Origin: Nonomuraea rubra
GTDB lineage: Bacteria; Actinomycetota; Actinomycetes; Streptosporangiales; Streptosporangiaceae
Direction: 5' to 3'
Assembly: GCF_014207985.1 (NCBI RefSeq)
Contig: NZ_JACHMI010000001.1
Span: forward strand, 6,307,001-6,371,000
DNA: 64,000 nt
The position numbers were made by a program, and so were the translations under genes. This document shows positions 733 through 16,544 of the stretch, piece after piece (position 1 is the first letter of the stretch; every line of letters begins with the position of its first letter). The notes beneath the pieces were generated by a model that was not told where the DNA came from, did no database searches, and saw only the letters and a list, made by a program, of their open reading frames with translations.

Positions 733-826
733 GTCACCTCCGTACGGCCGCCGCTGACGGCCACTGCCAGAGGAGGGTGCGCCCCGCGTTCACGCCGGTG
801 GAAAGATCCTGGAACACGTGCGCGAA

Positions 827-853
827 CGCGGGGCGGTCGGGCCCGGCCCCGCG
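827..853 (-). terminator. Stem-loop just after the formaldehyde dehydrogenase gene
   Basis: An 8-bp perfect stem, CGCGGGGC at 827-834 pairing with GCCCCGCG at 846-853, with an 11-nt loop. It begins directly beyond the dehydrogenase stop codon and before the kinase start. It fits an intrinsic terminator or mRNA-end hairpin, although there is no U-tract. Confidence 0.5.
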
Positions 854-854
854 A

Positions 855-2078
855 TCAGGACGTGCGGGACAGCAGGCCGTGCGGGTCGAGCACGTACTTG
901 CGTGCCGCGCCCTGGTCGAACTCGTGGTAGCCCCGCGGCGCCTCGTCCAGCAAGATCGGCGTGGCGTTGACGGCCTTGGCGATCTGCACCCGGTCGTGCA
1001 GGATCGCCTGCATGAGCTGCCGGTTGTAGCGCATGACGGGGCACTGCCCGGTGGCGAACTCGTGCGACTTCGCCCAGCCCAGGCCGATGCGGATGGACAG
1101 CGAGCCCTGCTTGGCGGCCTCGTCGGAGGCGCCCGGGTCGCCGGTCACGTACAGGCCGGGGATGCCGATGGCGCCGCCCGCCCTGGTGACGTCCATGAGC
1201 GAGTTGAGCACGGTGGCGGGGCGCTCCACCTCCGCCTCGCGGCCGTGCCCGCGGGCCTCGAAGCCGACCGCGTCCACGGCGCAGTCGACCTCCGGCTCGC
1301 CGAGGAGCTGCTCGATCTGGTCCCTCGGCTCGCCGAGGGCGATGTTGACGGTCTCGCAGCCGAAGCTGCGCGCCTGGTCCAGGCGCTCCTTGTTGAGGTC
1401 GGCGACGATGACGACGGCGGCCCCGAGCAGGAACGCCGAGGCTGCCGCGGCGAGCCCCACCGGCCCCGCGCCGGCGATGTAGACGGTCGATCCCGGCCCG
1501 ACGCCCGCGGTCACGCAGCCGTGGAAGCCGGTGGGGAAGATGTCGGCGAGCATGGCCAGGTCGAGGATCTTCTCCATCGCCCGGTCCTTGTCCCGGAACT
1601 TCAGCAGGTTCCAGTCGGCGTACGGCACCAGCACGTATTCGGCCTGGCCGCCGATCCAGCCGCCCATGTCGACGTACCCGTACGCCGAGCCGGGCCGGTC
1701 CGGGTTGACATTCTCGCAGATCCCGGTCTTGCCCTCCTTGCAGTTGCGGCACCGGCCGCAGGAGATGTTGAACGGCACGGACACCAGGTCGCCGGTCTTG
1801 ACGAACTCCACGCCGGGACCGGTCTCGACGACCTCACCGGTGATCTCGTGGCCGAGGACCAGCCCCGGGGGCGCCGTGGTCCTGCCGCGGACCATGTGCT
1901 GGTCGCTGCCGCAGATGTTGGTCGCGACGGTCTTGAGTATCGCGGCGTGCGGCAGTTTGCGCCCGACGTTGGCCGGGTTCACCCCTGGGCCGTCCTTGAG
2001 CTCGAACTCGGGATAGTCGATCTCGTGAACCTCGACCTTGCCCGGGCCTTCGTACACGACTCCTTTGTTGCCAGGCAT
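855..2078 (-). CDS. fdhA: Formaldehyde dehydrogenase, glutathione-independent (zinc alcohol dehydrogenase family)
   Basis: A 407-residue cytosolic zinc-dependent dehydrogenase. It resembles the glutathione-independent formaldehyde dehydrogenases of the Pseudomonas FdhA type (about 400 residues), which carry tightly bound NAD(H). Visible are the catalytic-zinc cysteine (NICGSDQH), the GHEITGE histidine motif, the structural-zinc cluster CGRCRNCKEGKTGIC, and a Rossmann motif AGAGPVGLAAAAS. The start ATG at 2078 has a GAGGGAGAG ribosome site. Its likely role is oxidising formaldehyde to formate; activity as an aldehyde dismutase is also possible in this subfamily. It sits between a MarR-like regulator and a sensor kinase on the same strand. 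Confidence 0.88.
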   Translation of the reverse strand: MPGNKGVVYEGPGKVEVHEIDYPEFELKDGPGVNPANVGRKLPHAAILKTVATNICGSDQHMVRGRTTAPPGLVLGHEITGEVVETGPGVEFVKTGDLVSVPFNISCGRCRNCKEGKTGICENVNPDRPGSAYGYVDMGGWIGGQAEYVLVPYADWNLLKFRDKDRAMEKILDLAMLADIFPTGFHGCVTAGVGPGSTVYIAGAGPVGLAAAASAFLLGAAVVIVADLNKERLDQARSFGCETVNIALGEPRDQIEQLLGEPEVDCAVDAVGFEARGHGREAEVERPATVLNSLMDVTRAGGAIGIPGLYVTGDPGASDEAAKQGSLSIRIGLGWAKSHEFATGQCPVMRYNRQLMQAILHDRVQIAKAVNATPILLDEAPRGYHEFDQGAARKYVLDPHGLLSRTS

Positions 2079-2187
2079 GTGGTGATCTCTCCCTCGAGCG
2101 GAAGTGACGGACGTACGATGCGCTGCACAAGCTCGGAGATCACCTCCTTTCCGGAGGGCGGGGGACTTCGCACGCGTTTTGTCCCCA

Positions 2188-2199
2188 ATATTCGAATAT
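2188..2199. promoter_or_regulatory. 12-bp palindrome in the AT-rich leader upstream of fdhA
   Basis: ATATTCGAATAT is a perfect palindrome about 110 nt upstream of the fdhA start, in an AT-rich patch of an otherwise GC-rich gap (2079-2215). It is probably part of the fdhA promoter or an operator. No regulator can be assigned from sequence alone. Confidence 0.35.
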
Positions 2200-2215
2200 A
2201 TCCCGAGAGGTCGCC

Positions 2216-3196
2216 TTAAATCCGCTTTGCTGATTCTTCACCGTTCCATGCCTCCGGGGTGGGCCGCCGCCCCGCGGCCTGCGTCAGCGCGGCGCGCTGG
2301 GCCGCGCTCAGGCGGTCCGCCCTCGGGACGGCGGCGTACGCTCCCCGCCCGGTCCGCTCCACCGTGAGGGGATCGGCGAGGCTCGTACGGCGGCCGATCG
2401 TGTCCAGGGCGCCGGCCGCTCGCTGGACGGGCCAGCCCAGCGCCGTGGCGAGCTCGTCCACGGTGAGCGGCCGGGCGGCGTGCACCAGCGCGGCCACCAC
2501 GGTCAGCGCGTCGCGGACGGCGGCGTCGGTGAGGCCGCTGCCGTTCATCTGCTCGCTGATCCAGGTGAAGAAGCCGGCCATCCGGCCCAGCCGGGCGCCG
2601 GCGGGCGTGCCGGCGCCGAAGATCTCGATCCCGCGCCGCGCGGCCGCCGCGACCTCGTCGTGCGCGCCGGTGTCGGATCTGAACGCCCGCAGCCAGACGT
2701 CGTCGTCGACGACGTACCGCTCGCGGCGGCCGGACTCCTGCGTACGCCTGACCAGCTCCATCTCCTCCAGGTAGCCGATGGCCTTGGACACCGACGCCGG
2801 GCTGACCTGGAGCCCGCGTACGAGCTCGGCGGACGTCAGGCTTCCCGGCTCGGAGGTGAGCAGGCAGACGAACACGCGAGCCGGCATCCGGGGAAGGCCG
2901 ACCCCGACGAGCAGCGTGGCGAACCGCTCCACGAAGGCGCGCACGGACTCGGCCGGCCGCCCGCCGTCCTGCGGCTGCGCGGCCCGTACGGGCCTGCGGC
3001 GGCGGGCGCGCTGCCCGGCGGCCTGCTGGGCGCGGTCGGCCAGGTAGGCGCCCGAGGCGCTGTTGCGGGCCACCTCGCGGCTGATCGTGGAGGTGGGCCT
3101 GCCCAGCCGCCTGGCGATCTCGGCGTAGCCCAGCCCGTCGGCCAGCCAGCTCGCGATCTGGCGGCGGTGCTCGTGGGTCAGCCTGCCTCCGGGCAT
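2216..3196 (-). CDS. MarR/GbsR-like transcriptional regulator with an IS30-type N-terminal HTH
   Basis: A 326-residue putative DNA-binding regulator with two DNA-binding-like parts. Residues 1-45 resemble the HTH_38 domain of IS30-type transposases (RRQIASWLADGLGYAEIARR). A MarR/GbsR-like winged helix lies around residues 80-180 (LTSAELVRGLQVSPASVSKA), and a C-terminal region of unknown role follows. I chose ATG 3196, preceded by GGGGACAGGAACG; a longer frame from 3247 would run into the repeat-bearing promoter. It is divergent from the serine hydrolase at 3400, with two identical 10-bp direct repeats in the gap, so it probably controls itself and that gene. The ligand is unknown. Confidence 0.75.
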   Translation of the reverse strand: MPGGRLTHEHRRQIASWLADGLGYAEIARRLGRPTSTISREVARNSASGAYLADRAQQAAGQRARRRRPVRAAQPQDGGRPAESVRAFVERFATLLVGVGLPRMPARVFVCLLTSEPGSLTSAELVRGLQVSPASVSKAIGYLEEMELVRRTQESGRRERYVVDDDVWLRAFRSDTGAHDEVAAAARRGIEIFGAGTPAGARLGRMAGFFTWISEQMNGSGLTDAAVRDALTVVAALVHAARPLTVDELATALGWPVQRAAGALDTIGRRTSLADPLTVERTGRGAYAAVPRADRLSAAQRAALTQAAGRRPTPEAWNGEESAKRI

Positions 3197-3241
3197 CGTT
3201 CCTGTCCCCTGCCTGGTTCGGGTGCGTTCACCCACAGTACA

Positions 3242-3294
3242 TTGCAACGATCACTCAACACGAATTGCATTTATCCGCACTACTGTTGCAACGA
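3242..3294. promoter_or_regulatory. Two TTGCAACGAT direct repeats, candidate operator
   Basis: TTGCAACGAT occurs at 3242-3251 and again at 3285-3294, 43 bp apart (about four helical turns). They lie in the AT-rich gap between the divergent regulator (start 3196) and serine hydrolase (start 3400). The placement suggests binding of the regulator encoded at 2216-3196. Confidence 0.5.
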
Positions 3295-3399
3295 TTTTCG
3301 ATAGATATGCAGCTCAACGCCTTGTCATTGAGAGTTCCAATTGACGACCTATTAAACGCAACGTAGCCTTTTCCCACTTGGAAAGAAAGGAGAAGCCCT

Positions 3400-5049
3400 G
3401 TGGCAAGACCCTTGGACGTGACCCGGCTGCGGGCACGCCTCGCCGAGCTGCTCGCGGAGTACCGGATCCCGAGCGCCTCGATCGGCGTCCTCACCGACGG
3501 GGAGATCACCGGCTTCGCCGCCGGCGTCCGCGACCTCTCCACCCGGGAGCCCGCGACGCCCGACACCGTCTACCAGTGCGGCTCCGTGTCCAAGACCTGG
3601 ACCGCCCTGGCCTTCATGCGGCTCGTCGACGAGGGAAAGGTCGCCCTCGACGAGCCGGTCCGCACCTACCTGCCCGGCTTCCGGGTCGCCGACCCCGGCG
3701 TCAGCGCCCAGGTCACCCCCCGCCACCTCCTCAACCACACCAGCGGCATCGAGGAGGACTACGGAGACCCGGGCGAGGGCGACGACGTGTACGAGCGCAT
3801 GGTGGCCAACCTCGCCGGCGCCCGCCAGGTCCACGCCCTGGGCCACACCCACGGCTACAGCCCCGCCCTGGGCTACGCGATCCTCGCCCGCATCATGGAG
3901 GTGATCGACGGCGGGCGGTGGGACGACATCATGCGGGACCGCCTGTTCGACCCCCTGGGCCTGACCTCGACGAGCACCCGGCCCGCCGGCCAGGACCGGG
4001 CCGCGACCGGCTACCTCGTCCGCTCCCTCGACGAGGGCCCGATCCCGTCGCCGCTGGCGCACCTGCCCCGTGCCTTCGGCCCCGGCGGCAACGTCAGCAC
4101 CACGGCCCGGGACCTGCTCACCCTGGCGTACGTCTTCCTCAACGAAGGACTGGCGCCGAACGGGACCAGGATCGTCTCACCCGGTGTCCTCCGCGAGATG
4201 ACCCACTCGCGGGTCCCCGTCCCCGACCCGTACCTGTTCGGGCCGGAATGGGCGCTCGGCCTCATCGTGTGCGACTGGCACGGCCACACCGTCTACGCCC
4301 ACGACGGCAGCGCGGTCAGCCAGAGCGCCCGCCTGCGGATCCTGCCGGAAGCGGGCGTCGCCATCTCCATGCTGGCCAACGCCGGGCCGCGCGACAGCTT
4401 CTACCGGAAGGTGTTCAACACCATCCTGGCCGACCTCGGCACGGTCACGATCCCCGACCTGCCCGAGCCCGACCCGTCCCTGACCCTCGACCTGTCCAGG
4501 TACGAGGGCTCCTACGAACGCCCCGGCACCCGCTACCAGGTGGCGGCCGAAGACGGAAGGCTCCACCTGAAATTCACCCTCAACCCGATGGAGGCGCAAC
4601 TCCTCGACAAACCGGAACAGCTCGACTACGAGCTGCTGCCGATCAGCGAGACGCACTTCTTGATGCCTTCCGACGATCCGCTGGAGGACACCCAGACCGT
4701 CGCGATCTACGAATTCAAGAATGGCGCCGCCCAATATTTGCACACCAATTGCCGAGTGAATCCGAGAGCCGACGAGAAGGGGGCCACGATGCACGTCATG
4801 GCTGTTTCCACCATTTCCGACCACGAAGGTTTCTGGAACGCGCTGAAGCAGGCGTACGGCCGGCTCCCCGGCGGCGCCACGTGGACGCTGGCGGTGGCGA
4901 GCACCGACGGCGCCAGGGCGGTGAACGTCATCGTCCATGACTCGCTCGACGGCGTCAGGAGCTTCTTCGAGGGCCACACCGCCCCCTTCGCCACGACGGA
5001 GTACTTCGAGGCGGACGCGGCCAACGCGGTCGGCCTCCCGTCCGCCTGA
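3400..5049 (+). CDS. Serine hydrolase, class C beta-lactamase fold, with C-terminal small-domain fusion
   Basis: A 549-residue protein with GTG start 3400 (AGAAAGGAG upstream). Residues 1-345 form a beta-lactamase/DD-peptidase-like domain with the nucleophile motif S62-V-S-K65 and an HDG triad at 301-303 in the KTG position. The usual YxN motif reads Y153-S-P. A lipocalin-like C-terminal region follows to about 460. The last 86 residues (464-549) are a separate small domain (FWNALKQAYG, AVNVIVHDS, FATTEYFEAD) resembling free-standing small actinobacterial proteins. It begins at an ATG (4789) with its own strong AAGGGGG ribosome site, so it may also be made separately. There is no signal peptide, so a cytosolic esterase or amidase is more likely than antibiotic resistance. 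Confidence 0.8.
   Translation: MARPLDVTRLRARLAELLAEYRIPSASIGVLTDGEITGFAAGVRDLSTREPATPDTVYQCGSVSKTWTALAFMRLVDEGKVALDEPVRTYLPGFRVADPGVSAQVTPRHLLNHTSGIEEDYGDPGEGDDVYERMVANLAGARQVHALGHTHGYSPALGYAILARIMEVIDGGRWDDIMRDRLFDPLGLTSTSTRPAGQDRAATGYLVRSLDEGPIPSPLAHLPRAFGPGGNVSTTARDLLTLAYVFLNEGLAPNGTRIVSPGVLREMTHSRVPVPDPYLFGPEWALGLIVCDWHGHTVYAHDGSAVSQSARLRILPEAGVAISMLANAGPRDSFYRKVFNTILADLGTVTIPDLPEPDPSLTLDLSRYEGSYERPGTRYQVAAEDGRLHLKFTLNPMEAQLLDKPEQLDYELLPISETHFLMPSDDPLEDTQTVAIYEFKNGAAQYLHTNCRVNPRADEKGATMHVMAVSTISDHEGFWNALKQAYGRLPGGATWTLAVASTDGARAVNVIVHDSLDGVRSFFEGHTAPFATTEYFEADAANAVGLPSA
4777..4791 (+). promoter_or_regulatory. Internal ribosome site and ATG inside the serine hydrolase gene
   Basis: AAGGGGG at 4777-4783, a 5-nt spacer, then ATG at 4789 in the same frame as the hydrolase. 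It coincides with the domain boundary, so an 86-residue product could start here. This is inferred from spacing and domain layout only. Confidence 0.45.
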
Positions 5050-5070
5050 CCGTTCCCCGCCGGAAACCGC

Positions 5071-5101
5071 TTGCGTCTCAAGCCGCTTGAGGCGCCACAG
5101 T
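5071..5101 (+). promoter_or_regulatory. MerR-type promoter with palindromic operator
   Basis: A -35-like TTGCGT at 5071-5076 and a -10-like CACAGT at 5096-5101 are separated by 19 bp. The spacer holds the perfect inverted repeat CTCAAG-CCG-CTTGAG (5077-5091). An over-long 19-bp spacer around a dyad is the hallmark of MerR-family autoregulated promoters. Transcription would begin at about the ATG of the regulator at 5108, giving a leaderless mRNA. Confidence 0.65.
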
Positions 5102-5107
5102 GGTTCC

Positions 5108-6112
5108 ATGGACGACCACGACCTTTACCCCATCGGGGACGCCGCGCGCCGCAGCGGCCTGAGCGTGAGCGCCGTGCGCTTCTACGCCGACACCGGGCTC
5201 ATCCCGCCCACGGCCCTGAACGAGGCCGGCCACCGGATGTACGACATCCAGGCCATCGCCCGGCTCGAACTCGTCCGCACCCTGCGCGAGCTGGACACCG
5301 ACCTGGACGAGATCCGCCGCCTGCTCGACGGCGGCACCACCCTGCACGACCTGCTCACCACGCACCTGGAGATCGTCGAACGCCAGGAACGCACCCTGCG
5401 GGCGCGGCGGGCCGTGCTCAGGACCCTCATCAAGCAGGGCGGCACGACCGCGCAGGCCGACCTGATGCACAAGCTCGTGTCGATGACCGACGAGGAACGC
5501 GAACGGACCATCGACGACTTCTGGAACGACGTCGGCCAGGACCTGGACGTCCCGGAGGGCTTCGTCGACCGGTTGCGGGCGATGCGGCCCGTCCTGCCCG
5601 CGGACCCCACGGCCGCCCAGCTCGAAGCCTGGATCGAGCTGGCGGACCTGGTGTCGGACCCGGCGTTCCGCGACGCGGTCCGCACCTACCTGCGGGACAC
5701 CTACTCCCCGCCGGAGGCCCGGCTCCTGGCGACCGAGCCGTTCCAGGAGTTCATGCACGTGAGCGGGGCCACGCTCATGGAGGAGCTGCTGGCCGCGCAA
5801 CGGGCCGGGCAGTCGCCCCGCTCTCCCGGCGTCCAGCAGGCCGTCATCCGCTTCATGGAGGCGGCCGCCGGGCTGTCAGGCACGCCGCTCACCCCCGAGC
5901 TCCGCGACCGGATGGCCGACGGATATCGGCAGGTCCCCGGCCTCCTCCGGCAGATCGCCGACGAGGACGCCGCCTCCGGGCGGCCCGTCTACGACAGCAC
6001 CCACGGCCGGTACCTGTCCCTGGTGGCGCTGATCAACGGGACCCCGGCCGAGGCGGACCACGACCCCATCCCCTACGCCTGGATCGCCGACGCCATGCGC
6101 GCCACCTCCTGA
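5108..6112 (+). CDS. MerR-family transcriptional regulator
   Basis: A 334-residue regulator. The N-terminal MerR winged helix (residues 6-75) reads YPIGDAARRSGLSVSAVRFY, with the second element RMYDIQAIARLELVRTLREL, followed by the dimerisation helix. Residues 110-334 are a helical effector-binding region without metal-binding cysteines, so a small-molecule or protein ligand is more likely than a metal. The start was placed at ATG 5108 because it lies right after a MerR-type promoter with a palindrome in its 19-bp spacer. The frame extends upstream, but that part overlaps the hydrolase and lacks the family start. It probably represses and activates its own gene. Confidence 0.85.
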   Translation: MDDHDLYPIGDAARRSGLSVSAVRFYADTGLIPPTALNEAGHRMYDIQAIARLELVRTLRELDTDLDEIRRLLDGGTTLHDLLTTHLEIVERQERTLRARRAVLRTLIKQGGTTAQADLMHKLVSMTDEERERTIDDFWNDVGQDLDVPEGFVDRLRAMRPVLPADPTAAQLEAWIELADLVSDPAFRDAVRTYLRDTYSPPEARLLATEPFQEFMHVSGATLMEELLAAQRAGQSPRSPGVQQAVIRFMEAAAGLSGTPLTPELRDRMADGYRQVPGLLRQIADEDAASGRPVYDSTHGRYLSLVALINGTPAEADHDPIPYAWIADAMRATS

Positions 6113-6242: not shown

Positions 6243-6737
6243 ATGGCGGTCGTGGAGTTCGGGGCGGGTCAGGGCGGGCGGGTGTACGTCGAGGTCGCCG
6301 ACCAGGACGACGGCGACGGGCTCGTCAGGGCGGGGGCCGGCGACCGCGTCGTGCGCGCGGCGGCCCAGACGTGGAACGGCGCGCTGAGCGGGATCCGGGC
6401 CGCGGCCGAGGGGGTCGCGGCGCAGGTGGGCGCGCTCGAACCCGCACCTGAGGAGGTCGAGGTGACCTTCGGCGTGGCGGTCAGCGGCAAGCTGGGTGCC
6501 ACGCTGGTCTCCACGGGCAGCGACGCGCACGTCAACGTCCGCATCGTCTGGCGCAACCCCACCGCGGACCCCGCCGGCACCGCCGCAACCGCCAGTGCCG
6601 CCAGGCCCGCGGACGCCGCCGGTACCGCCGAAGCCGCCGCCGGTGCGGCCAGCCCCGCGGACGCCGCCGGCACCGCCAAACCCGCCGGCACCGCCAAATC
6701 CGCCGGCACCGCCGGAGCCGTCGGTCCCTTCGCGTGA
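6243..6737 (+). CDS. Trypsin-co-occurring domain protein (CU044_2847 / Trypco1 type)
   Basis: A 164-residue protein. Residues 1-105 match the small domain seen next to trypsin-like conflict-system proteins in actinobacteria: an alternating beta segment near the start (VYVEVADQDD), a helical ALSGIRAAAEGVAAQVG stretch, then EVEVTFGVAVSGKLGATLVSTG. Residues 110-164 are a flexible Ala/Gly/Pro/Thr tail. The GGGGAGGGG-like site precedes ATG 6243. Its stop overlaps the GTG start of the next gene (GTGA at 6734-6737), so the two are translationally coupled. It probably acts as a partner, substrate or adaptor of the downstream protease. The molecular role is inferred from family context only. Confidence 0.72.
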   Translation: MAVVEFGAGQGGRVYVEVADQDDGDGLVRAGAGDRVVRAAAQTWNGALSGIRAAAEGVAAQVGALEPAPEEVEVTFGVAVSGKLGATLVSTGSDAHVNVRIVWRNPTADPAGTAATASAARPADAAGTAEAAAGAASPADAAGTAKPAGTAKSAGTAGAVGPFA

Positions 6738-9700
6738 CAGGCGCCGGCCTGCGCGCCCGGCTCGCCGCGCGCCCGCCGTGGCTGGTCCGCCTGCCGGTGA
6801 CGGCCGGAGCCGGGACCGCGGGGGACGGGACCGCGGGGGACGGGATCGCCGGAGCCGGGGTGCTCATCGGCCCCCGGCACGTGCTCACCTGCGCCCACGT
6901 CGTCGACCTCGCCCTCGGCGGCCCCGCCGCCACAGCGGGATGCGGCGATGCGCCGGCGGGCACGGCGGTGACCGCGGAATTCCCCTTCGCCTCACGCGCC
7001 GACCCGGCCCAGATCTCCGTACGGGCGAAGGTGGTGGGCTGGGCACCCATCACCGAGGACGGCTCGGGCGACGCCGCCCTGCTGGAACTCGCGACCCCCG
7101 TCGACCACGTCCCCGCCCCCCTGGCCTGCCCGCCCGCGCTGACCGGCCACCCGTTCTCCGTCCACGGCTTCCCCCGCGGCGAGACGGCGGCCCGGCAGGC
7201 CACAGGCGTCATCCGCGGAGCCAGCGGCCCGACCGGCCAGTGGGTGCAGATCGAGGCGCAGAGCCAGACCGGCTGGGCGATCGAGCGGGGCTTCTCCGGC
7301 GGGCCGGTGTTCGACCACCACAGCGAGGCCGTGACCGGCATCGTCGTCCTGCGCGACGACCACCGCAGCGGCCACATGCTGCCGATCTCCTACCTGCGCA
7401 CCCTCTGGGAAGAGGTACGGCGGAGCTGCGGCTGGCGGCTGGACCTGGACCCGCACCTGCCGACGCACTGGCTGCCCCGCGCCCGCGGCTGCGAGCTCGG
7501 CACCGATGAGTGGCACTTCACCGGCCGCGTCGAGGCCCGCCGCGCGATCCGCGACTGGCTGGCGCGCCCGGCACCGGCCGGGCAGCCGATCCTGCTGGTG
7601 ACCGGCGGCCCCGGCTGCGGCAAGTCCGCGCTGCTCGCGCACACCCTGCTGGCGGCCGACCCCCGGCTGTCGGCGACCGTCCCCACGCCGGGCCCCCGCC
7701 CGCCCGCGGGCGCCTTCGACGCGGCCCTGCACCTGAAGGGCTTGACCTGCGACGAGACGGCCGCCCGGCTCGCGGACGCGCTCGGCGCCACGGCCGACGA
7801 GCCCGCCGAGCTGCTCGCCGCCGTGAGCGGCCTGCCGCCGGGCACCTCGTTCACCGTGCTGGTGGACGCGCTGGAGGAGGCGGCCTCCGCCGAGGAGGCC
7901 AGGCGGATCGCGGTGCTGCTGCGGCAGGTCGCGGGCACCGGCCGGCTACGGGTGCTGGCCGGGGTGCGCACCGCGCCGCCGGACAGCCGCCACGCCCGCG
8001 TCCTGGACGCGTTCGGGCAGCGCGTGCCCCGCATCGATCTGGAGGCGCCGCCGTACCTGCGCCACGCCGACGTCGCCGACTACGTGGTGAACCGCCTGCG
8101 CGGCCGGGCCCGTCCCGGCTCCTGGGATCTGCCCGCCATCGGGCAGGCCGTGGCCCGCAGGGCGGGCCACAACTTCCTCATCGCCCAGCTCGTCAGCGAC
8201 CGCCTGAACCACCCCGCCGCCGCGCCGCCCCACCCCGGGACACCCGGGTGGGAGGAGCAGTTCCCCGAGAGCGTCGGCCAGGCGATGGAGGACTACCTGC
8301 GCGCCTGCGCCCCCGACGCCGAGCTCGTACGGCGGCTGCTGACCGCCCTGGCCTTCGCCAGGGGCGACGGCCTGCCCGTGGGCAGGACCTGGCTGCTCAT
8401 GGCCACCGGCCTCGGCCACGGGCTCGCGCCCGCCCCCGCCGACCTGCACGACGTCGTCCAGAACGCGGCCCACTACCTCGTCGAGCACGTCGACCCGCAG
8501 GCCGGGCAGAGCACGTACCGGCTCTACCACGACGCGATCGACGATTACCTGCGCGAGCGGTGCCGCCACCCCGATCCCCAGCGCGCCATCACCGACGCCC
8601 TCACCGCCGCCGTTCCCGGCCCGGACGGGCAGCGGGACTGGTCGGCGGCCGACCCGTACACCCTGGCGCACCTGGCCGGCCACGCGGCGGCCGCGGGACG
8701 GCTCGACCCGCTGCTGGACGACCCCGGCTACCTCGTCCACGCCCTGCCCGGGCCGCTCCTCACGGCGCTGCCCGCCGCGACCACCGCGAAGGGCGCGCTG
8801 GCGGCACGCGTCTACCGCACCTCCGCCTACCGCCACCGCGCGGCCACCCCGGCGCGGCGCTGCTGGACGCTCTCCTTCGACGCCGCCCGCCACCACGCGC
8901 CGGCGCTGCGCCGCGCGTTCGACACCCTGCTCGACACGCTCGCGCCGCGCGGCGGCTCCCGCTGGCGGCCGTACTTCGCGGCCGGGCACGCCCCCCAGCC
9001 CGGCAACCTGGCCGTCATCGGGCAGGTCGTGGGCTCGGGGCTGGCGGCGGGCGTCGCGGACGGCCGGGCCATCGCCCTCGTCCCCGGGCCGGACGCCGTC
9101 CGGATCTGGGACCTGGAGGAACAGTTCCAGACCGGCGAGCTGCCCGTGGACGGCACCCTGTCGGCCACCGCCACCGCCGTGGGCCGGGACCTGGCGGCGC
9201 TCGCGTCCGACGGCCCCGTCGACGTCTGGGACCTCGCCACGCGCCAGCGGATCGCCCGCCTGGAGCCCATCGGCGGCCAGGTCGCGCAGCTCGCCTTCGC
9301 GCGGTGCGACGGCCGGACCCTCCTGCTGGGCGCCGGCCACAACGGCCAGCCCGTCCGGGTGTGGGACCTGGCGACCGAACGCGAGCTCGGCCGCCTCGAC
9401 GAGGCGACCGGCCCCGGCGTGGCCACCGGGCGGCTGGAGGGCCGGGCCGTGGCCGTCACGCTCGGCCGCCACGGCCGCGGCATGCAGGTGTGGGACCTGG
9501 CCGAGCGCAGGACGACGCGCCACCTGTTCGACGACGACGTCATCGCCGCCTACCGCGTCGGCCGCATGGACGGCCGTACGGTCACCCTGGCGGTGCTCAC
9601 GGGCCACGACCCCGTCGCCGAGGTCCGTGACCTGGCCACCGGCGAGGTGATGTCCCGCGTGCCGCTGCCGCGCGAGCAGGTCGGCGACGTCGCCCTGACC

Positions 9701-10903
9701 CTCGTGAAAGGACGCCCGACAGCGCTCGTCCCCTGCGCGGGAGAGCGGAGCGTGCGCGTCCTGGACCTGGTGGACGGCACCGAGACCGCCAGGCTGCTCG
9801 GGCACTCCGGCTACCCCTACCGCGTGGTCACGGTGCGGTCCGGCGAGCGCACGCTCGCGGTGACCAAGGACCTGACCGAGACGGCCATGATCTGGGACCT
9901 CACCGGCCTCCAGCCACCCGGCGCGCCGGCAGGCGAGGAGTCGTTCGAGATCAGGGCGGCGGACCTGGGCGAGCTGGACGGCCGGGAGGTGGTCGCCGCC
10001 ATCGGCGCCGACGACCAGCTCGTCCGCGTGTGGGACCTGGCCAGCGGCCAGCAGACCGCCCGGCTCGCCGGGCACGCCGACCGCCACAGGCGGGGCCTGG
10101 CCACCATCGCGATCCGTTCCTGGCAGGACGACGCCGTGGCCGTCACCAGCGGGCTCAACGAGGCGGTACGCGTCTGGGACCTGGGGAGGCGCCGCCAGAG
10201 CGCGTGCCTGGACGTCCGGCTGATCTCGGAGATCGTCCTCGGCGACCTGGCCGGCCGCCGCATCGCCCTGCTGCGGGGGGACGGGCCGCACGTGCACGTC
10301 TGGGACCTGACGGCCGGACGGGCGGCCGGGGTGCTGGGCGGCGCCCCCGAACCGGCCGGCGACCGCGTCACCATCGCCCTCGACACCGAATGGGGCCGCA
10401 TCAGCGCCCAGCGCGGTGCGCGGCTGGCGCTGGCCACGTGCGGCCCGCGCGCGCTCGCGCTGGTCGGGCCGACAGGCGTCGCCAGGAAACCCGTCCAGGT
10501 GTGGGACGTGCTCGCCGGGCGCCGCATCGGCCGTCTCGACTGCGACGGCCTGCTGGCCCTCGCCGCCGGACGCTGCGACGGCCGCCCGACGGCGATCACC
10601 TGCGGTCTGGACGGTTCCATCCGCATCTGGGACCTGCTGCGGCTCGGCGAGACGGGCTGGCTGACGCCGCATCCCGGCGGCACCACCGCCGTCGCCATCA
10701 CCGAACTCGGCGGCCAGGCGCACGCCGTCACCGGCGGCTACGACGAGATGGTCCGCGTGTGGGACCTGGGCACCAGGAGCGTCGTGGAGGAGTTCCGGGT
10801 GCCGGAGTGGGTGCGCGGCCTGTCCGTCAGCAGCCGCGGCACCATCCTGGTCATGTACGGCGGCAGCGTCGCCGCCTTCACGACGCGCGGGCCGGCCGTC
10901 TGA
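6734..10903 (+). CDS. Trypsin-like protease - STAND NTPase - WD40 multidomain protein
   Basis: A 1389-residue cytosolic protein. Residues 40-225 are a trypsin-like domain with a complete-looking triad: H55 (LTCAHVV), D113 (GDAALLE) and S188 (GFSGGPV). Residues 265-560 are a STAND/NACHT-type NTPase with Walker A GGPGCGKS (291-298) and Walker B FTVLVDALEEA (373-383). A helical linker follows. From about 760 to the end there are around 13 WD40 blades ending in VRVWDL-like strands, enough for two seven-bladed propellers. By analogy to STAND switches, the WD40 part would sense a trigger, the NTPase would oligomerise and the protease would be the effector. Such systems have been predicted to act in phage defence or programmed cell death; this is inferred for the present protein. 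Confidence 0.85.
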   Translation: MTGAGLRARLAARPPWLVRLPVTAGAGTAGDGTAGDGIAGAGVLIGPRHVLTCAHVVDLALGGPAATAGCGDAPAGTAVTAEFPFASRADPAQISVRAKVVGWAPITEDGSGDAALLELATPVDHVPAPLACPPALTGHPFSVHGFPRGETAARQATGVIRGASGPTGQWVQIEAQSQTGWAIERGFSGGPVFDHHSEAVTGIVVLRDDHRSGHMLPISYLRTLWEEVRRSCGWRLDLDPHLPTHWLPRARGCELGTDEWHFTGRVEARRAIRDWLARPAPAGQPILLVTGGPGCGKSALLAHTLLAADPRLSATVPTPGPRPPAGAFDAALHLKGLTCDETAARLADALGATADEPAELLAAVSGLPPGTSFTVLVDALEEAASAEEARRIAVLLRQVAGTGRLRVLAGVRTAPPDSRHARVLDAFGQRVPRIDLEAPPYLRHADVADYVVNRLRGRARPGSWDLPAIGQAVARRAGHNFLIAQLVSDRLNHPAAAPPHPGTPGWEEQFPESVGQAMEDYLRACAPDAELVRRLLTALAFARGDGLPVGRTWLLMATGLGHGLAPAPADLHDVVQNAAHYLVEHVDPQAGQSTYRLYHDAIDDYLRERCRHPDPQRAITDALTAAVPGPDGQRDWSAADPYTLAHLAGHAAAAGRLDPLLDDPGYLVHALPGPLLTALPAATTAKGALAARVYRTSAYRHRAATPARRCWTLSFDAARHHAPALRRAFDTLLDTLAPRGGSRWRPYFAAGHAPQPGNLAVIGQVVGSGLAAGVADGRAIALVPGPDAVRIWDLEEQFQTGELPVDGTLSATATAVGRDLAALASDGPVDVWDLATRQRIARLEPIGGQVAQLAFARCDGRTLLLGAGHNGQPVRVWDLATERELGRLDEATGPGVATGRLEGRAVAVTLGRHGRGMQVWDLAERRTTRHLFDDDVIAAYRVGRMDGRTVTLAVLTGHDPVAEVRDLATGEVMSRVPLPREQVGDVALTLVKGRPTALVPCAGERSVRVLDLVDGTETARLLGHSGYPYRVVTVRSGERTLAVTKDLTETAMIWDLTGLQPPGAPAGEESFEIRAADLGELDGREVVAAIGADDQLVRVWDLASGQQTARLAGHADRHRRGLATIAIRSWQDDAVAVTSGLNEAVRVWDLGRRRQSACLDVRLISEIVLGDLAGRRIALLRGDGPHVHVWDLTAGRAAGVLGGAPEPAGDRVTIALDTEWGRISAQRGARLALATCGPRALALVGPTGVARKPVQVWDVLAGRRIGRLDCDGLLALAAGRCDGRPTAITCGLDGSIRIWDLLRLGETGWLTPHPGGTTAVAITELGGQAHAVTGGYDEMVRVWDLGTRSVVEEFRVPEWVRGLSVSSRGTILVMYGGSVAAFTTRGPAV

Positions 10904-10904
10904 C

Positions 10905-12170
10905 TCAGTCGTCGTGCGCGATGAGCATGAGCTGCCGCCACAGCAGCACCAGGAACACCGCGGAACCCGCGAAGGCGAACCAGAAGGGCGCCGCGACCCC
11001 GAAGCGGGTGGCCAGGATGCCGCCGATCATCGACCCCACCACCAGCCCGGCGAAGACGCAGATGGTGTTGACGCTGCCCACCCGGCCCTGCAGCTCCTGC
11101 GGCACCGCCCGCTGGCGGACGGTGCCCGAGGTGGTGCCCCAGATGAACGCGTGCGCGCCGAAGACCAGGAAGATGCCGCCCGCGACCCACGGCGAATGGG
11201 TCAGGGCGAGGCCCAGATGGGTGAGCGTCTCGATGATGAGCCCGATCCGCATGAGGGCGCCCAGGCTCACCTTGCGGGTGATCGCCCCGTACAGGCCGGT
11301 GCCGATCAGGCCGCCGATTCCGCCGATGGTGGTCATCAGGCCGAAGCCGATGGCGCCGAGGCCGAGCTGTTCCTGGGTGTAGAGGACGAGAACCGACCAG
11401 GCCGCGCCGAACGTGAAGTTGAAGATCAGGATGGTGAGCGCCAGCGTGCGGACCGCCGCGTGCCTGATCGTCCAGGTGAACCCGGCGATGAGCTCCCTGA
11501 TGGTGTCGGGCGCGGGATCGCCGGCCTGCCGGCCGTGCGGCGGCAGCTTGATGCGGGAGACCAGGACGATGCCCGCCGCGACCAGGAGCAGCTGGCCCGC
11601 GAACGGCCAGGTCAGGCCCAGGCCGAACAGTGCCGCGCCGATCGGCGGCCCGGCGAGCTGGTTGAGCGTGATGAATCCGGTGCCCAGGCGGGCGTTGGCG
11701 ATGACGAGGTCGTCCCTGCTGACCATCATGGGGGTCAGCGTGGCCGTCGCGTTGTCGGCGAACACCTCGGCGATGGACCGGAGCGTGAGCGCCACCAGCG
11801 CCGTCGCCACCGTCACGGTGCCGGTCACCGTGAGCACGACGAGCGCCGCCAGCACCGCGGCCCGCACCGCGTTCGCGACGAGCACGATTTTGCGCCGGTC
11901 GTACCGGTCGGACAGCACGCCCGCGTACAGGCCGAACAGCAGCGGAGGCGCCCAGCTCACCAGGGCCGACAGCGAGATCAGCAGCGGGTCGCGCGTCAGC
12001 GTCGCGATCAGCAGCGGGCCCGCCGCGGCGGCGACCCCGTCGCCGAGATTGGTCAGCCAGCTCGAGGCCAGCAACCACCGGAAACCTGTCCCGAGCCGGG
12101 CAGGGAGAACTCGCTCAACCACTGTGATCACGAGCGCAAGACCATACGTTTCCGCGATGATCGACGGCAA
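10905..12170 (-). CDS. MFS transporter (MFS_3, EntS-like exporter)
   Basis: A polytopic membrane protein of up to 421 residues with about 12 hydrophobic segments. The start region reads GFRWLLASSWLTNLGDG and the A-motif is GVLSDRYDRRKIVL between helices 2 and 3, both typical of MFS_3 permeases that export siderophores or drugs. The substrate is unknown. The start is uncertain: the longest frame uses TTG 12170, but GTG 12131 or 12122 would fit homologues better, and none has a clear ribosome site. An insertion sequence begins only 45 bp upstream and may have cut the gene off from its native promoter. It ends 1 bp from the convergent protease-NTPase-WD40 gene. Confidence 0.8.
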   Translation of the reverse strand: MPSIIAETYGLALVITVVERVLPARLGTGFRWLLASSWLTNLGDGVAAAAGPLLIATLTRDPLLISLSALVSWAPPLLFGLYAGVLSDRYDRRKIVLVANAVRAAVLAALVVLTVTGTVTVATALVALTLRSIAEVFADNATATLTPMMVSRDDLVIANARLGTGFITLNQLAGPPIGAALFGLGLTWPFAGQLLLVAAGIVLVSRIKLPPHGRQAGDPAPDTIRELIAGFTWTIRHAAVRTLALTILIFNFTFGAAWSVLVLYTQEQLGLGAIGFGLMTTIGGIGGLIGTGLYGAITRKVSLGALMRIGLIIETLTHLGLALTHSPWVAGGIFLVFGAHAFIWGTTSGTVRQRAVPQELQGRVGSVNTICVFAGLVVGSMIGGILATRFGVAAPFWFAFAGSAVFLVLLWRQLMLIAHDD

Positions 12171-12214
12171 CGCGTTTTTCGCCCCCGGACCGCGCCCGGC
12201 GTCAGAGGTCGCTA

Positions 12215-13152
12215 GGTAGTGTCTGACAAATGATCACGTTCGCGCTTGAATAGTCGATCGTGGTGCGACGTGGTGAGCTGACCGAGAAGGCGTGGGCGCG
12301 GATCCAGCCGTTGCTGCCGGTGGTTGACGGGCGTGGCCGTCGCTGGCGTGATCATCGAGAGGTGATCGATGGCATTCTGTGGCGGCTGCGGACCGGCGCG
12401 CCATGGCGGGACATCCCCGAGCGGTACGGACCCTGGCAGACCTGATACGAGCGGTTCAGGCGCTGGGAGGAGGACGGCACCTGGGCCCGGCTGCTGGAAG
12501 AGATGCAGGTCAAGGACGACTCCCTCGGCCAGGTCGAGTTCACCGTGAGCATCGACTCCACCATCGCCCGCGCCCACCAGCACGCCGCCGGCGCCCGGAA
12601 AAGGGGGACGACGGCGGGACGATCGATACGAAGCAATCGCAAAACCGGCAGGCGCTCGGACGATCCCGCGGTGGACTGACCACCAAGTTGCACCTGCTGG
12701 TGGAGGCCCGCGGACTGCCGCTGGTCCTGCACCTGACCGGCGGCAACACTGTCGACTGCGCCGCGTTCGAGGCGGTGCTGGCCAAGCTCCGGGTGCGCCG
12801 CCCGGCCGGCGGCCGCCCGCGTACCCGGCCCGACACCGTGATCGGCGATAAGGGTTACTCCACCCGCAAGATCAGGCTCGACCTGCGCCGGCGCGGGATC
12901 AAGGCGGTCATCCCCGAACGGCGCGACCAGATCGCCAACCGCAAGCGCAGGGGCAGCCGTGGCGGCCGCCCGCACACCTTCGACGCCCTCACCTACAAGC
13001 AGCGCAACCTGGTTGAGCGCTGCATCGGCAAGCTCAAGCAATGGCGTGCCATCGCCACCCGCTTCGACAAGCTGGCCAGCCGTTACCTGGCGGGTGTCAC
13101 CATCGCCTCGCTCATGCTCTGGCTCCGGCAGGCCGAATTGTCAGACACTCCC
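12215..13152 (+). mobile_element. IS5-type insertion sequence (about 0.94 kb)
   Basis: The ends are 15-bp imperfect inverted repeats. The left is GGTAGTGTCTGACAA (12215-12229); the right (13138-13152) reads GGGAGTGTCTGACAA on the other strand, with one mismatch. The flanks are CTAG at 12212-12215 and 13152-13155, giving a target duplication of TA, or of CTAG if the element is counted as 12216-13151. It carries one transposase frame of the IS5 superfamily (IS427-like) that is interrupted. It sits between the MFS transporter and the carbonic-anhydrase-like gene. Confidence 0.85.
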
Positions 13153-13155
13153 TAG
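12260..13155 (+). pseudogene. IS5-family transposase, interrupted by a stop and a frameshift
   Basis: The N-terminal part (GTG 12260) has the DUF4096-like LTEKAWARIQPLLP region. An in-frame TGA at 12443-12445 follows WQT, where relatives continue with a residue before YERF. The frame goes on to the first catalytic Asp (SIDSTIARAH) near 12550. It then needs a -1 shift at the run A4G5 (12599-12607) to reach the second part with GDKGYST (second Asp) and ERCIGKLKQW (Glu). The shift site could be programmed, as in other IS5 elements. The TGA is not part of such a scheme, so this copy is probably inactive. The stop TAG lies at the element's right edge. Confidence 0.82.
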
Positions 13156-13188
13156 GCGCGAGCGGATCCGGAGACCGCCGGCCAGGCG

Positions 13189-13797
13189 TCACAGCTCCCG
13201 GTCATGACGGTGGTCGGCGAGGCCGGTCGTCTCGCGCCGGGTGAGTTCCTTCATGTCCATGTCGACGCCACCGCCGGGCTGGCGTTCCAGCCCGTAGACC
13301 TGCTGGGGGAAGTCCATCCGGCTGAGGATCGCGTCGATCTCCTCGTGCTCGCCGGGCGGGAAGAGCCGGGCGGGGTCGCCGACGGCGATCCACTTGATCG
13401 GGACGAGCGAGCCGGGCGGCAGGACGCTGCCGACGTGCACGATGCCGTCGATGCGGACCTCCGTGCGCTCGCCCACGTGCGCGCCCTGGTAGATCCGCAC
13501 GCCGGTGGCGAGGAAGCACTCGTTCCCGACCGTGCAGCCCTTGAGTGACGAGTGCGGGCCGATCAGGACGTGGTCGCCGATGTCGACCGCGTTCCGGCTC
13601 GTGCTGCGGATGTTGAGGTTCTCGCGGACGGCGCACTGCGCGCCGATGCGGACGGGGCTGCCGTGCGACTCGATCACCGCGCCGTACGAGACGTGTGTTC
13701 GCGGGCCGATCGTCACGTCTCCGCAGATGACGGCCGTTGGGGCGATATAGGCGGTCGGGTCGATGCTGGGCCGTTTGCCCTGGTGCTCTATGAGCAT
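13189..13797 (-). CDS. Gamma-carbonic-anhydrase-like hexapeptide-repeat protein
   Basis: A 202-residue left-handed beta-helix protein. Hexapeptide-type repeats run from about residue 14 to 150 (IAPTAVICGDVTIGPRTHVS), followed by a C-terminal helix region. His residues at GPRTHVSYG and LIGPHSSLKG are candidates for the trimer-interface zinc site of gamma-carbonic anhydrases (YrdA/PaaY/CaiE group). Whether it hydrates CO2 cannot be told from sequence; the group also includes CoA-ester and acyltransferase relatives. The start ATG 13797 has AAGGAG nine bases upstream. The preceding insertion sequence ends about 35 bp beyond its stop. Confidence 0.82.
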   Translation of the reverse strand: MLIEHQGKRPSIDPTAYIAPTAVICGDVTIGPRTHVSYGAVIESHGSPVRIGAQCAVRENLNIRSTSRNAVDIGDHVLIGPHSSLKGCTVGNECFLATGVRIYQGAHVGERTEVRIDGIVHVGSVLPPGSLVPIKWIAVGDPARLFPPGEHEEIDAILSRMDFPQQVYGLERQPGGGVDMDMKELTRRETTGLADHRHDREL

Positions 13798-13872
13798 GAG
13801 CAGGAGCTCCTTGGGTGATCGGGTTCACGGGGTGCCCGTTCGCCCCGACCTACCCGGCCTGGGGCAGCGCAC

Positions 13873-14496
13873 TCAGGGGAGCCTGATGAGGCGCCGCTCC
13901 ACGGCGGCGGTGACGGCGGCGGTACGCGTGTCCACGCCGAGCTTGCCGTAGATGTGCACCAGGTGCGTCTTGACCGTCGCCTCGGTGATGAACAGCCGCC
14001 TGGCGATCTCCCGGTTGCCCGCACCGCTCGCCAGCAGTTCCAGGATCTCCACCTCCCGCACGCTCAGCGCCGGGCCCGGATCGCGCAGGCGCCGCATCAT
14101 CCGCGCCGCCACCTTGGCCGACAGCACGCTCTCGCCCCTGGCCGCGGCCCGGATGCCCTGGAACAGCTCCTCCGGCGGGCACACCTTGAGCAGGTACCCG
14201 GTGGCGCCCGCGGCCACGGCGCGCATGACGTCCGCGTCGGTCTCGTACGTCGTCAGGACCAGGACCTGCGGCGGCGAGGGCAGCGCCCGGATCCGCCGGG
14301 TGGCCTCGGCCCCGTCGGCGCCGTCGCCGAGTTGCAGGTCCATGAGCACGACGTCGGGCCGCCGCGCGGCGATCCCGCTCAGCGCCTCCTCGGCGCCGGA
14401 CGCCTCGCCGACGATCTCGATGTCGTCCTCGCCGCCGAGCAGCGCCACCAGGCCCGCCCGGACGACCGGGTGGTCGTCCACCAGGAACAGCCTCAT
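13873..14496 (-). CDS. NarL/SenR-type response regulator
   Basis: A 207-residue response regulator. The receiver domain (1-120) has LFLVDDHPVVRAG, the phospho-acceptor Asp in DVVLMDLQLGDG, the switch Thr in VLVLTTYE and the Lys in YLLKVCPPEE. A LuxR/NarL HTH (145-207) reads LSVREVEILELLASGAGNRE and TEATVKTHLVHIYGKL. Its ATG at 14496 shares one base with the kinase stop codon, so the pair is co-translated. With the HbpS-like secreted protein across the divergent promoter, the set resembles Streptomyces SenS-SenR-HbpS, which senses heme and redox stress. Confidence 0.88.
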   Translation of the reverse strand: MRLFLVDDHPVVRAGLVALLGGEDDIEIVGEASGAEEALSGIAARRPDVVLMDLQLGDGADGAEATRRIRALPSPPQVLVLTTYETDADVMRAVAAGATGYLLKVCPPEELFQGIRAAARGESVLSAKVAARMMRRLRDPGPALSVREVEILELLASGAGNREIARRLFITEATVKTHLVHIYGKLGVDTRTAAVTAAVERRLIRLP

Positions 14497-15659
14497 CACG
14501 CCCCCGCCCGCTCGTACGGGCGGACGGGGATCCTGGCCCCGACCGCCGTGCCCTCGCCGGGGGCGCTCTCGACGATCAGGACGCCGCCCACCTCCTCCAG
14601 CCGGTCGCGCATCGCGCGCAGGCCGTAACCGCGTCCGGGAGCGGGGGCCGGCTCGGCGAAGCCCGCCCCGTCGTCGAAGACGTCCAGCGTGACCTCGCCG
14701 TCCAGGTAGGACAGGGTCACCGTGGCACCGGCGGCGCCCGCGTGGTCGCGGACGTTGGCCAGCGCGCCCTGGGCCACGCGCAGCAGCGCCGTCTGCACGC
14801 CGGGCTCCAGGGGGTACTGCTCGCCCTCCAGCCTCAGCCGCACGGGCGGTCCGCCGCCGGTGTCCGCGCAGAGCCGGGTGAGCGCTTCGGGCAGCGTGCC
14901 GCCGTTGTCCAGGCCGGGTGGCCGCAGGTCGCGGACGAACCGGCGGGCCTCGTCGAGGTTCTCCGCGGCGGCCGCGGCGGCCCGCCGTACGTGGGCGCGG
15001 GCGAGCCCGGGGTCGGTGGCCCAGGCGCGGTCGGCGGCCTGCAGCAGGATGCCCATGCTGGTCAGGCCCTGCGCGAGCGTGTCGTGGATCTCCCTGGCCA
15101 GCCGCTCGCGCTCCTCCAGGACGCCGGTACGGTGCCGCGAGGCGGCCAGCGTCTCCCGGGCGGCGATCAGGTCGTCGATGAGCAGCTGGCGGGCGGCGCT
15201 CTCGCGCTGGAGCTCCCAGAACGTCACCGCCGTGATGGCGGCGACCCCGATGGGCGCGAGGATCAGGCTCGGGTCGATCTCCTGGGCGATCTTGGTCTGC
15301 GCGGCGATCACCACGAGCGTGAGCGCCGCCGCGGCCACCGCGAACGCGCGCGCGTTCAGCAGCCGCAGGCACAGGAAGAGCAGCGGCACCGCGCACCAGC
15401 TGAACGACGGCGCGAGCACCACCAGCCCCAGCCAGAGCGCCGCCACGCAGCCGAGCCACACCAGCCGCCCGCGCCGCCCGAGCCGGCTCCACGTCACCAT
15501 GCCCGCCAGGTACGCCAGGGCGAGAACGGCGCAGACGACCAGCGACGTCACGGTCTGCGCGACCAGGCCGTGCCGGGACACCAGCCTCCACGCCGAGGCG
15601 GCCAGCAGCAGGTAGAAGCCGGCATGCATGGCCCAGTTGAGCCAGACGCGCTCCCTCAT
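14496..15659 (-). CDS. SenS-like sensor histidine kinase (HisKA_3 type)
   Basis: A 387-residue membrane kinase. About five hydrophobic segments occupy residues 8-165, with short loops and no large extracellular domain, as in SenS of Streptomyces. Next are a coiled-coil stretch and the HisKA_3 phosphorylation site ERERLAREIHDTLAQGL, then an HATPase_c domain with the N-box NVRDHAGA, G1 DDGAGF and G2 GYGLRAMRDR. I used ATG 15659 (CCCTGTCC then GGGAGGGGCG on the coding strand); the frame is open further upstream but only into the promoter. It partners with the overlapping response regulator and probably interacts outside the membrane with the HbpS-like protein. Confidence 0.87.
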   Translation of the reverse strand: MRERVWLNWAMHAGFYLLLAASAWRLVSRHGLVAQTVTSLVVCAVLALAYLAGMVTWSRLGRRGRLVWLGCVAALWLGLVVLAPSFSWCAVPLLFLCLRLLNARAFAVAAAALTLVVIAAQTKIAQEIDPSLILAPIGVAAITAVTFWELQRESAARQLLIDDLIAARETLAASRHRTGVLEERERLAREIHDTLAQGLTSMGILLQAADRAWATDPGLARAHVRRAAAAAAENLDEARRFVRDLRPPGLDNGGTLPEALTRLCADTGGGPPVRLRLEGEQYPLEPGVQTALLRVAQGALANVRDHAGAAGATVTLSYLDGEVTLDVFDDGAGFAEPAPAPGRGYGLRAMRDRLEEVGGVLIVESAPGEGTAVGARIPVRPYERAGA

Positions 15660-15730
15660 CGCCCCTCCCTGTCCGTTCTGCCCCGACCCTATGCAGTGCC
15701 GGGGACCGGCCGGGCCGGGACGGCGGCACA

Positions 15731-15746
15731 TCAACCGATCGGTTGA
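15731..15746. promoter_or_regulatory. Perfect 16-bp palindrome between the kinase and hbpS-like genes
   Basis: TCAACCGATCGGTTGA lies 72 bp upstream of the kinase start and 110 bp upstream of the HbpS-like start. It is the best candidate operator for the NarL-type regulator, possibly controlling both divergent transcripts. Confidence 0.55.
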
Positions 15747-15856
15747 CCGGCGGCTCGACCGCTTGACGCCGCGGGATCGCCCGTGCTCCCGATGGCTCGC
15801 GGTGTTCTCGCTGGAAGGCTTCTACCTGCCTGAACACCTGAAGAACGGAAGAGACG

Positions 15857-16396
15857 ATGACCGGTTCCCGCCGTATCCGCCTGATCGCCGCCGGCCCGCT
15901 CGCGGGCCTCGCCCTCCTGGGCACGGCCCTCGGGCCCGCCGCCGAGGCGTCCGTACCCGCCGCTGGGGTCGCCCCCGCGGTCGTCCAGACCAGGGTGCTG
16001 TCGTCCGGCGCCGCCCTGGAGGTCGCCGAGGCGGCGATGCAGGAGGCCGCCAAGCAGAAGCAGCGCGTCACCGTCGTGATCGTCGACCGTTCGGGGGCGA
16101 CCCGGCTGGTGGTGAAGGGTGACGGCGCCGGGCCGCAGACGGAGGAGTCGGCCAGGCGCAAGGCGTTCACGGCCGTCTCGTTCGGCCGGGCGACCAGCGA
16201 GCTCGCCAAGGGGCTGAACGGTGGAGGCCCGACCATCGCCGACATCCCCGGTACGCTCTTCCTCGGCGGCGGAGTGCCCGTCGCCTCCGGCGGCGCGCCC
16301 GTGGCGGGCATCGGGGTCGGCGGTGCACCGAGCGGCGACATCGACGAGGCCATCGCCCGCGCCGGCCTCAAGGCGGTCGCGGACCGGCTGCGATGA
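15857..16396 (+). CDS. HbpS/GlcG-family heme-binding secreted protein
   Basis: A 179-residue secreted protein. Residues 1-32 are a signal peptide (RIRLIAAGPLAGLALLGTAL, then an AEAS cleavage region). The mature part is a GlcG/HbpS domain: AAMQEAAKQKQRVTVVIVD, RKAFTAVSFGRAT, and a glycine-rich end FLGGGVPVASGGAPVAGIGVGG. In Streptomyces reticuli HbpS binds heme, forms octamers and modulates the sensor SenS. Here the gene is divergent from a SenS/SenR-like pair, which supports the same job. ATG 15857 has a GGAAGAG site. Confidence 0.85.
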   Translation: MTGSRRIRLIAAGPLAGLALLGTALGPAAEASVPAAGVAPAVVQTRVLSSGAALEVAEAAMQEAAKQKQRVTVVIVDRSGATRLVVKGDGAGPQTEESARRKAFTAVSFGRATSELAKGLNGGGPTIADIPGTLFLGGGVPVASGGAPVAGIGVGGAPSGDIDEAIARAGLKAVADRLR

Positions 16397-16466
16397 CAGG
16401 CCCGCGTCCGATGGGCGTACCGGGCTTGAGCGCGCCGGACTCGAACGGGCCCGGCCCGAACGGGCA

Positions 16467-16526: not shown

Positions 16527-16544
16527 GAGCATGAAGGGGCGGCG

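Follow-up and report, generated by a model that had tools for sequence, protein, structure and literature searches.

The window analyzed here, a stretch of 64,000 nucleotides from the 12.9-Mb genome of Nonomuraea rubra, carries on its forward strand two overlapping genes that may form an accessory, NLR-like protease system. The first (6243..6737, +) encodes a small Trypco1 protein, and the second (6734..10903, +) a protein of 1389 residues in which a trypsin-type protease, an NB-ARC-like STAND module and a WD40 region follow each other in a single chain. The start at 6243, chosen from homologues, is the likely one, an alternative being available at 6219, and the Trypco1 domain covers about 6267-6554 (+). 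The start of the large gene and the stop of the Trypco1 gene share the GTGA at 6734..6737 (+), an overlap by which the two genes may be translationally coupled. A preliminary description of this DNA had proposed the overlapping pair, with an intact-looking triad, both Walker motifs and about 13 WD40 blades, and all of these elements are recovered by the profile, alignment and structure comparisons presented below.

The protease and the STAND switch of the large protein were recognized by AlphaFold2 modeling and comparison with the Protein Data Bank (PDB), in this order, and the WD motifs come after them. Residues 1-230 (6734..7423, +) clearly match the trypsin fold, in its HtrA/DegS-like S1 form, and sequence alignment places the triad at H55 (codon 6896-6898), D113 (7070-7072) and S188 (7295-7297), all on the + strand. 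Judged from alignment and predicted fold, the domain is an HtrA/DegS-like serine protease with a His-Asp-Ser triad. In the STAND module (residues 248-613; 7475..8572, +), the nucleotide-binding domain, the helical module and the winged-helix module are all recognized. Walker A reads GGPGCGKS from residue 291 (7604-7627, +) and Walker B holds D378 (7856-7870, +); across 39 sequences, the invariant positions are G264, G291, P293, G294, G296-S298 (hence K297 and S298), D378, G546-L547 and H599. The CED-4/CED-3 structure is among the Foldseek matches of the module, and the cut-off of nSTAND1 (PF20703) is missed by it, with 24.8 bits vs 27.1. By motif and model, it is a STAND module of the NB-ARC/AP-ATPase type with both Walker motifs intact, for which assembly driven by nucleoside triphosphate (NTP) is predicted.

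A mostly alpha-helical linker (residues 614 to ~762; 8573..9019, +), with helices up to residue 736 in the AlphaFold2 secondary structure, leads to the WD40 region (9020..10900, +). Here 13 WD-like motifs are recognizable, in repeats of ~40-67 residues ending in WD, and a degenerate last blade probably follows. The region matches PF25173 with E 2.6e-30, yet under that family's own cut-off, and PF00400 (WD40) gives 26.4 bits vs a cut-off of 27; Apaf-1 is among its sequence matches. The repeats are those expected of a WD40 beta-propeller, the propeller itself being predicted. The blades had been described as near-identical and as a sign of recent expansion of the sensor, but their ungapped identity averages 22%, with 41% for the best pair (21% and 45% if slightly shorter blades are taken). 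Outside the WD hexamer, identity is 14.5% vs 9.3% for shuffled blades, which indicates that the blades of the window are true but old repeats. Recent expansion would instead fit some relatives, in which the best blade pairs reach 93% (P0074), 85% (P0030) and 95% (P0094), and a sister cassette of the same genome (L252), whose blades average 50% identity with a best pair at 87%. A separate observation is a 99% identical copy of the protein (P0003), which has a frame break where the WD40 region starts and represents either a broken gene or an assembly error.

The STAND family of the window is found behind several kinds of N-terminus. Matches of the STAND search were fetched in part, as 117 regions taken mostly by E-value together with 21 loci of a family search, and N-terminus classes were assigned by profiles built from homologues. 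The 115 STAND open reading frames (ORFs) obtained from the search matches, that is, 114 loci and the window, comprise 87 caspase, 18 trypsin, 3 weak trypsin and 7 neither-class versions, and the 21 further loci comprise 5 caspase, 14 trypsin and 2 neither-class versions; seven loci were fetched that lack a STAND ORF, three of them chosen deliberately as Trypco1 loci. At least four WD-like motifs lie 3' of the STAND module in 13/18 trypsin ORFs and 72/87 caspase ORFs. One protein first called weak trypsin (L234) carries bDLD3 (E 7.3e-21) before the same STAND family with WD40, and the other two (L208 and L216, divergent trypsin-STAND proteins) have Trypco2 upstream (E 3.2e-21 and 1.3e-19). New here is that N-termini of the trypsin, caspase and bDLD3 kinds are found on one STAND family, in most cases followed by WD40. 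Also, P0047 bears a PNP_UDP N-terminus that matches PADLOC effector models; over 65% of residues 1-760, its STAND module shows 51% identity. On the tree, this protein falls with P0022 and P0028, both of the trypsin class (100/100 support), and no WD40 domain is listed for its 813 residues, which may be incomplete. In three other loci (L173, L220 and L221), the N-termini before the STAND module resemble, by eye, a pair of membrane helices, a possible effector or anchor.

In the loci scanned, Trypco1 accompanies trypsin versions of the large protein. It is linked in 28/31 scorable trypsin versions (27/30 without the window), L211 being unscorable because it is cut at the contig start, and it was found near 0/92 caspase versions, of which 87 were scanned up to ~6 kb per side where the contig allowed and 5 within 1.5 kb. 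These counts leave out the nine neither-class loci and L234, L208 and L216, the last three without Trypco1. In one of the nine (L229), Trypco1 is found upstream, next to a trypsin region that is out of frame, either because the gene is broken or because of an assembly error. In 24/32 trypsin versions, window included, Trypco1 is directly upstream on the same strand, and in four (L147, L225, G1012 and G851) it is placed 3' of the large gene, twice on the opposite strand. Such altered gene orders are one of two observations less exposed to shared ancestry. The other is provided by two sister cassettes of the same genome, at ~7.25 Mb (L251) and 3.98 Mb (L252), both with the order Trypco1-trypsin-nSTAND1-WD40. 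Their trypsins are 30-34% identical to that of the window, and Trypco1 and WD40 are recognizably related; their STAND modules belong to nSTAND1 (E 2.2e-74 and 6.9e-99) and have almost no BLAST match to the window STAND. The fourth Trypco1 of the genome (L250, G000:C1:4240000-4255000) is in another setting, with a Trypsin_2 protein, a PknG-like kinase and a vWA protein 2.5-8 kb upstream.

The Trypco1 ORF itself passes the curated cut-off of PF19493 with 77.2 bits vs 24.6 (E 1.5e-21) and matches NCBIfam NF041216 (E 1.6e-16). It overlaps a Trypsin_2 gene and so has the trypsin-like peptidase neighbor expected of the family; a trypsin-like match lies within 1.5 kb in 45/61 sampled Trypco1 loci, window included, in a scan whose trypsin profile was refined on the same loci and from which the presence of a match alone was used, its strand labels being unreliable. 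Up to E 1, a search with the Trypco1 sequence returned 15 chains, most of them helical, with a designed helical bundle at the top. The tail of the protein is rich in Ala, Pro, Gly and Thr and is encoded by a 48-base minisatellite (6560..6715, +). The preliminary description proposed that the small protein could be the first substrate of the protease, being released or activated on cleavage; nothing shows such a role, and we consider it improbable. It would agree with the linkage of Trypco1 to trypsin and with the proteolytic cascades proposed for related systems in the main-text parts of PMC7159879. However, the flexible tail is missing in 12/13 aligned homologues, being present only in P0113, a 95% identical homologue named Nonomuraea rubra whose tail minisatellite has another length. 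Moreover, of the near-invariant positions P69, F76, V99 and W103, three fall within strands that a weak model predicts, and no effector domain is attached to Trypco1 in the window.

The locus is accessory and variable, as observed from its sporadic distribution and from a slot that holds other genes in the nearest relative. A search with the STAND part at a threshold of E 1e-10 gives a match in 16/54 genomes of the genus, counting that of the window, and the best-scoring other is 39% identical. The flanking genes, given as context only, encode a MerR-family regulator on the left (4937..6112, +; PF13411 E 3e-17) and an MFS transporter on the right (10905..12170, -; PF07690 E 3.3e-25). In the nearest relative by region (G049, locus L260), homologues of MerR (86.9% identical) and MFS (93.1%) bracket the slot, and the flanks align at 88.6-92.9% DNA identity over window positions 1-6101 (with a short gap) and 10905-12185. 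Between them, G049 has, in place of the 4.8-kb cassette, 3.2 kb with two different genes, which we take to resemble a pyridoxamine-phosphate-oxidase-like protein and a UvrA-like ABC protein. An empty site for the cassette was not found, the nearest relative holding this different insert. Elsewhere in the genus, across 16 loci of 12 other genomes, the MerR and MFS genes are not close together. Window positions 12185-13873 are also without counterpart in L260 and include a DDE transposase (12379-13155), 1.5 kb from the cassette. Residues 1-758 had no match in the phage records, 48 plasmid records matched, every one below 60% identity, and a pattern-based scan of genome contigs, made with just two patterns, gave three loci only. 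Two further observations concern the surroundings: in G015 (L261), a divergent pair resembling Trypco1/trypsin-STAND adjoins the same MFS gene on its other side, and response-regulator/LuxR-type and BTAD/AAA/TPR regulators are located near the locus in the window (13873-16686 and 18640-21789).

A self-regulating protease with a housekeeping or developmental function, in signaling or protein quality control and not in defense, would be compatible with the HtrA-like fold, which belongs to a quality-control family, and with the MerR and MFS flanks; STAND proteins serve as transcriptional regulators too. We regard this possibility as unlikely, though deserving attention, since the sporadic distribution, the replaced slot and the interchangeable N-termini, one of which matches effector models, argue against it. 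Of the two outcomes that the preliminary description had considered contrary, neither is found: the N-terminal region does match the trypsin fold, and the pair does not sit in a conserved housekeeping context.

Apaf-1 and CED-4, the apoptosome proteins, have an NB-ARC-type STAND in common with the window protein. Apaf-1 recruits a separate caspase through its CARD, whereas in the window a serine protease is part of the same chain and a Trypco1 gene accompanies it. The order death effector-STAND-WD40 is also that of fungal HET/NACHT-WD40 allorecognition proteins, and the highly similar blades of some bacterial relatives reported here (best pairs up to 95%) are a further likeness to them. However, the window blades are divergent and no HET match is listed, the likeness of the window protein being one of domain order. 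The protease region provides the best PADLOC match of the large protein (E 1.6e-5), and it matches Avs1b of AVAST type 1 weakly (E 0.0031) over residues 37-149 only; the PADLOC test does not place the window in this system.

Among described bacterial systems, the MoxR-vWA-VMAP ternary systems (Kaur et al. 2020, PMC7159879), likened to the Apaf-1 apoptosome in the main-text parts of that paper, have Trypco1/2 as neighbors of trypsin domains and a predicted conflict role in multicellular bacteria. There, the trypsin domain is in or beside VMAP, with MoxR and vWA, whereas here an NB-ARC-like STAND and WD40 follow it in the same chain. The preliminary description, in which trypsin-co-occurring domains with STAND NTPases were given as predicted NTP-dependent conflict systems, overstated the case, since in the main-text parts Trypco1/2 accompany trypsin domains of the ternary systems and not STAND-WD40 proteins. 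The genes adjacent to the pair are MerR and MFS, and no match to VMAP, MoxR or vWA was obtained in 13 further ORFs scanned from a partial gene set (4-21789) or among the best 25 of the 31 families listed for the large protein; the pair is not assigned to the ternary systems. In the CARD-NLR/LypABC system, according to the main-text parts of PMC13236601, a trypsin-like peptidase and an NLR-like ATPase are jointly required for cell lysis, as separate proteins and with an NLR that bears TPR, in contrast to the single chain with WD40 repeats of the window. No CARD or bDLD is present among the best 25 of the 31 families considered for the large protein, so it is not assigned to CARD-NLR. The nSTAND1-clade proteins of PMC8195603 share the architecture effector/adapter-STAND-C-terminal sensor, and trypsin and caspase are listed there, in the main text, among interchangeable N-termini of other STAND proteins; their sensor is FGS/NPCBM, whereas that of the window is WD40 and its STAND is below the nSTAND1 cut-off. 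The term "trypco" occurs 0 times in the main text of PMC8195603. In PMC10907252, Trypco1 is called an adapter domain in the main-text parts. The pair of Trypco1 with a trypsin-NB-ARC-WD40 protein was not met in the literature examined, which comprises main-text parts without supplements from a search of incomplete coverage, and as far as seen it is new.

From the computed domain order, predicted fold, motifs, genetic linkage and accessory distribution, we infer a trigger, an assembly, an activation of the protease, a contact with Trypco1 and an outcome. The large protein would be an analogue of an apoptosome contained in one chain. The WD40 C-terminus would sense the trigger, and the NB-ARC-type STAND would bind NTP and assemble. 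The assembly would bring the HtrA-like proteases together, their proximity switching them on, and local cleavage of cell proteins would probably stop the growth of a hyphal compartment under infection or stress, or kill it. Trypco1 would be a dedicated partner of the protease, co-made through the overlapping genes and kept alongside when gene order changes. We assign a probability of about 0.6 to this accessory two-gene system, a WD40-gated, NTP-switched protease with Trypco1 as its partner, its role against phage or stress being the suggested one. To our knowledge, no function of Trypco1 has been demonstrated.

Several results weigh against this reading. The versions with trypsin and those with caspase fall for the most part into different clades, so that 28/31 vs 0/92 are not phylogenetically independent counts; a STAND tree with 44/87 caspase loci needs only two class changes and contains one or two independent pairs, in which Trypco1 did not differ, and an independent-pairs test of trypsin vs Trypco1 had too few pairs and gave no support. 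Also, over 26 pairs, Trypco1 distances track STAND distances (partial r 0.73, 0/2000 permutations) and not protease distances (partial correlation 0.04, p 0.34; no support for co-evolution), so a protease-specific contact is not favored. No trypsin match is present within 1.5 kb in 16/61 sampled Trypco1 loci, the fold model of Trypco1 is weak (predicted local distance difference test score, pLDDT, 67.9) and returns nothing from the PDB with Foldseek at E <= 0.001, and no PADLOC model covers the pair. Moreover, three trypsin loci with an intact triad have no linked Trypco1: L140, with four copies elsewhere in its genome; L108, with none within 8 kb; and L284, with none found in a genome that is 84% complete.

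The same three loci bear on the possibility that Trypco1 is an antidote, restraining the protease until infection removes it, as in toxin-antitoxin pairs. An antidote gene commonly precedes its toxin gene, and here a small upstream gene with an overlapping start is linked to trypsin versions. However, intact proteases occur without linked Trypco1, the gene is 3' in four loci, two of them on the opposite strand, and STAND proteins are usually autoinhibited; hence, an antidote appears rather unlikely. Of the three roles, we favor that of a cofactor for folding or activity over those of antidote and substrate, though the data do not separate them.

A last difficulty comes from the triad. It is complete (HDS) in 26/39 aligned sequences, window included, one further sequence being an N-terminal fragment, and in 12/38 scorable homologues (P0031, P0033, P0034, P0036-P0041, P0043, P0045 and P0048) its residues are lost or unalignable, with Walker A and B kept in all. 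Proteolysis, therefore, can be only a part of what the family does. The decay needs at least four changes on the tree, in which several forks are open, and these losses would suit a family whose true core is the STAND-WD40 part, with a protease that in many members is a scaffold without catalysis. Nonetheless, HDS is kept in 32/32 trypsin loci of known context, that of the window included, and the genomic context of the decayed homologues was not found among the loci examined, a profile of the 12 matching 0/9 neither-protease loci and not L234. We hold the scaffold reading to be very improbable.

Finally, a more far-reaching version of the preferred reading, a WD40-gated protease partnered by Trypco1, can be put forward tentatively. 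The pair would be a bacterial apoptosome in one chain, its protease sitting in cis with the NB-ARC/WD40 sensor and receiving its license from Trypco1, which stays when the STAND is exchanged and was not found beside caspases. The sisters with decayed triads would join mixed assemblies as partners without proteolytic activity, in the manner of helper or decoy NLRs; we hold all this to be doubtful. The linkage, the changes of gene order and the different STAND modules within one genome pose a testable question, namely, what is needed by a trypsin effector but not by a caspase carried on the same STAND family. If the proposal is true, such a bacterial apoptosome, uniting protease and switch in a single chain, would be useful for comparing the evolution of NLR proteins, and the decayed-triad sisters would show an effector turning into something else.
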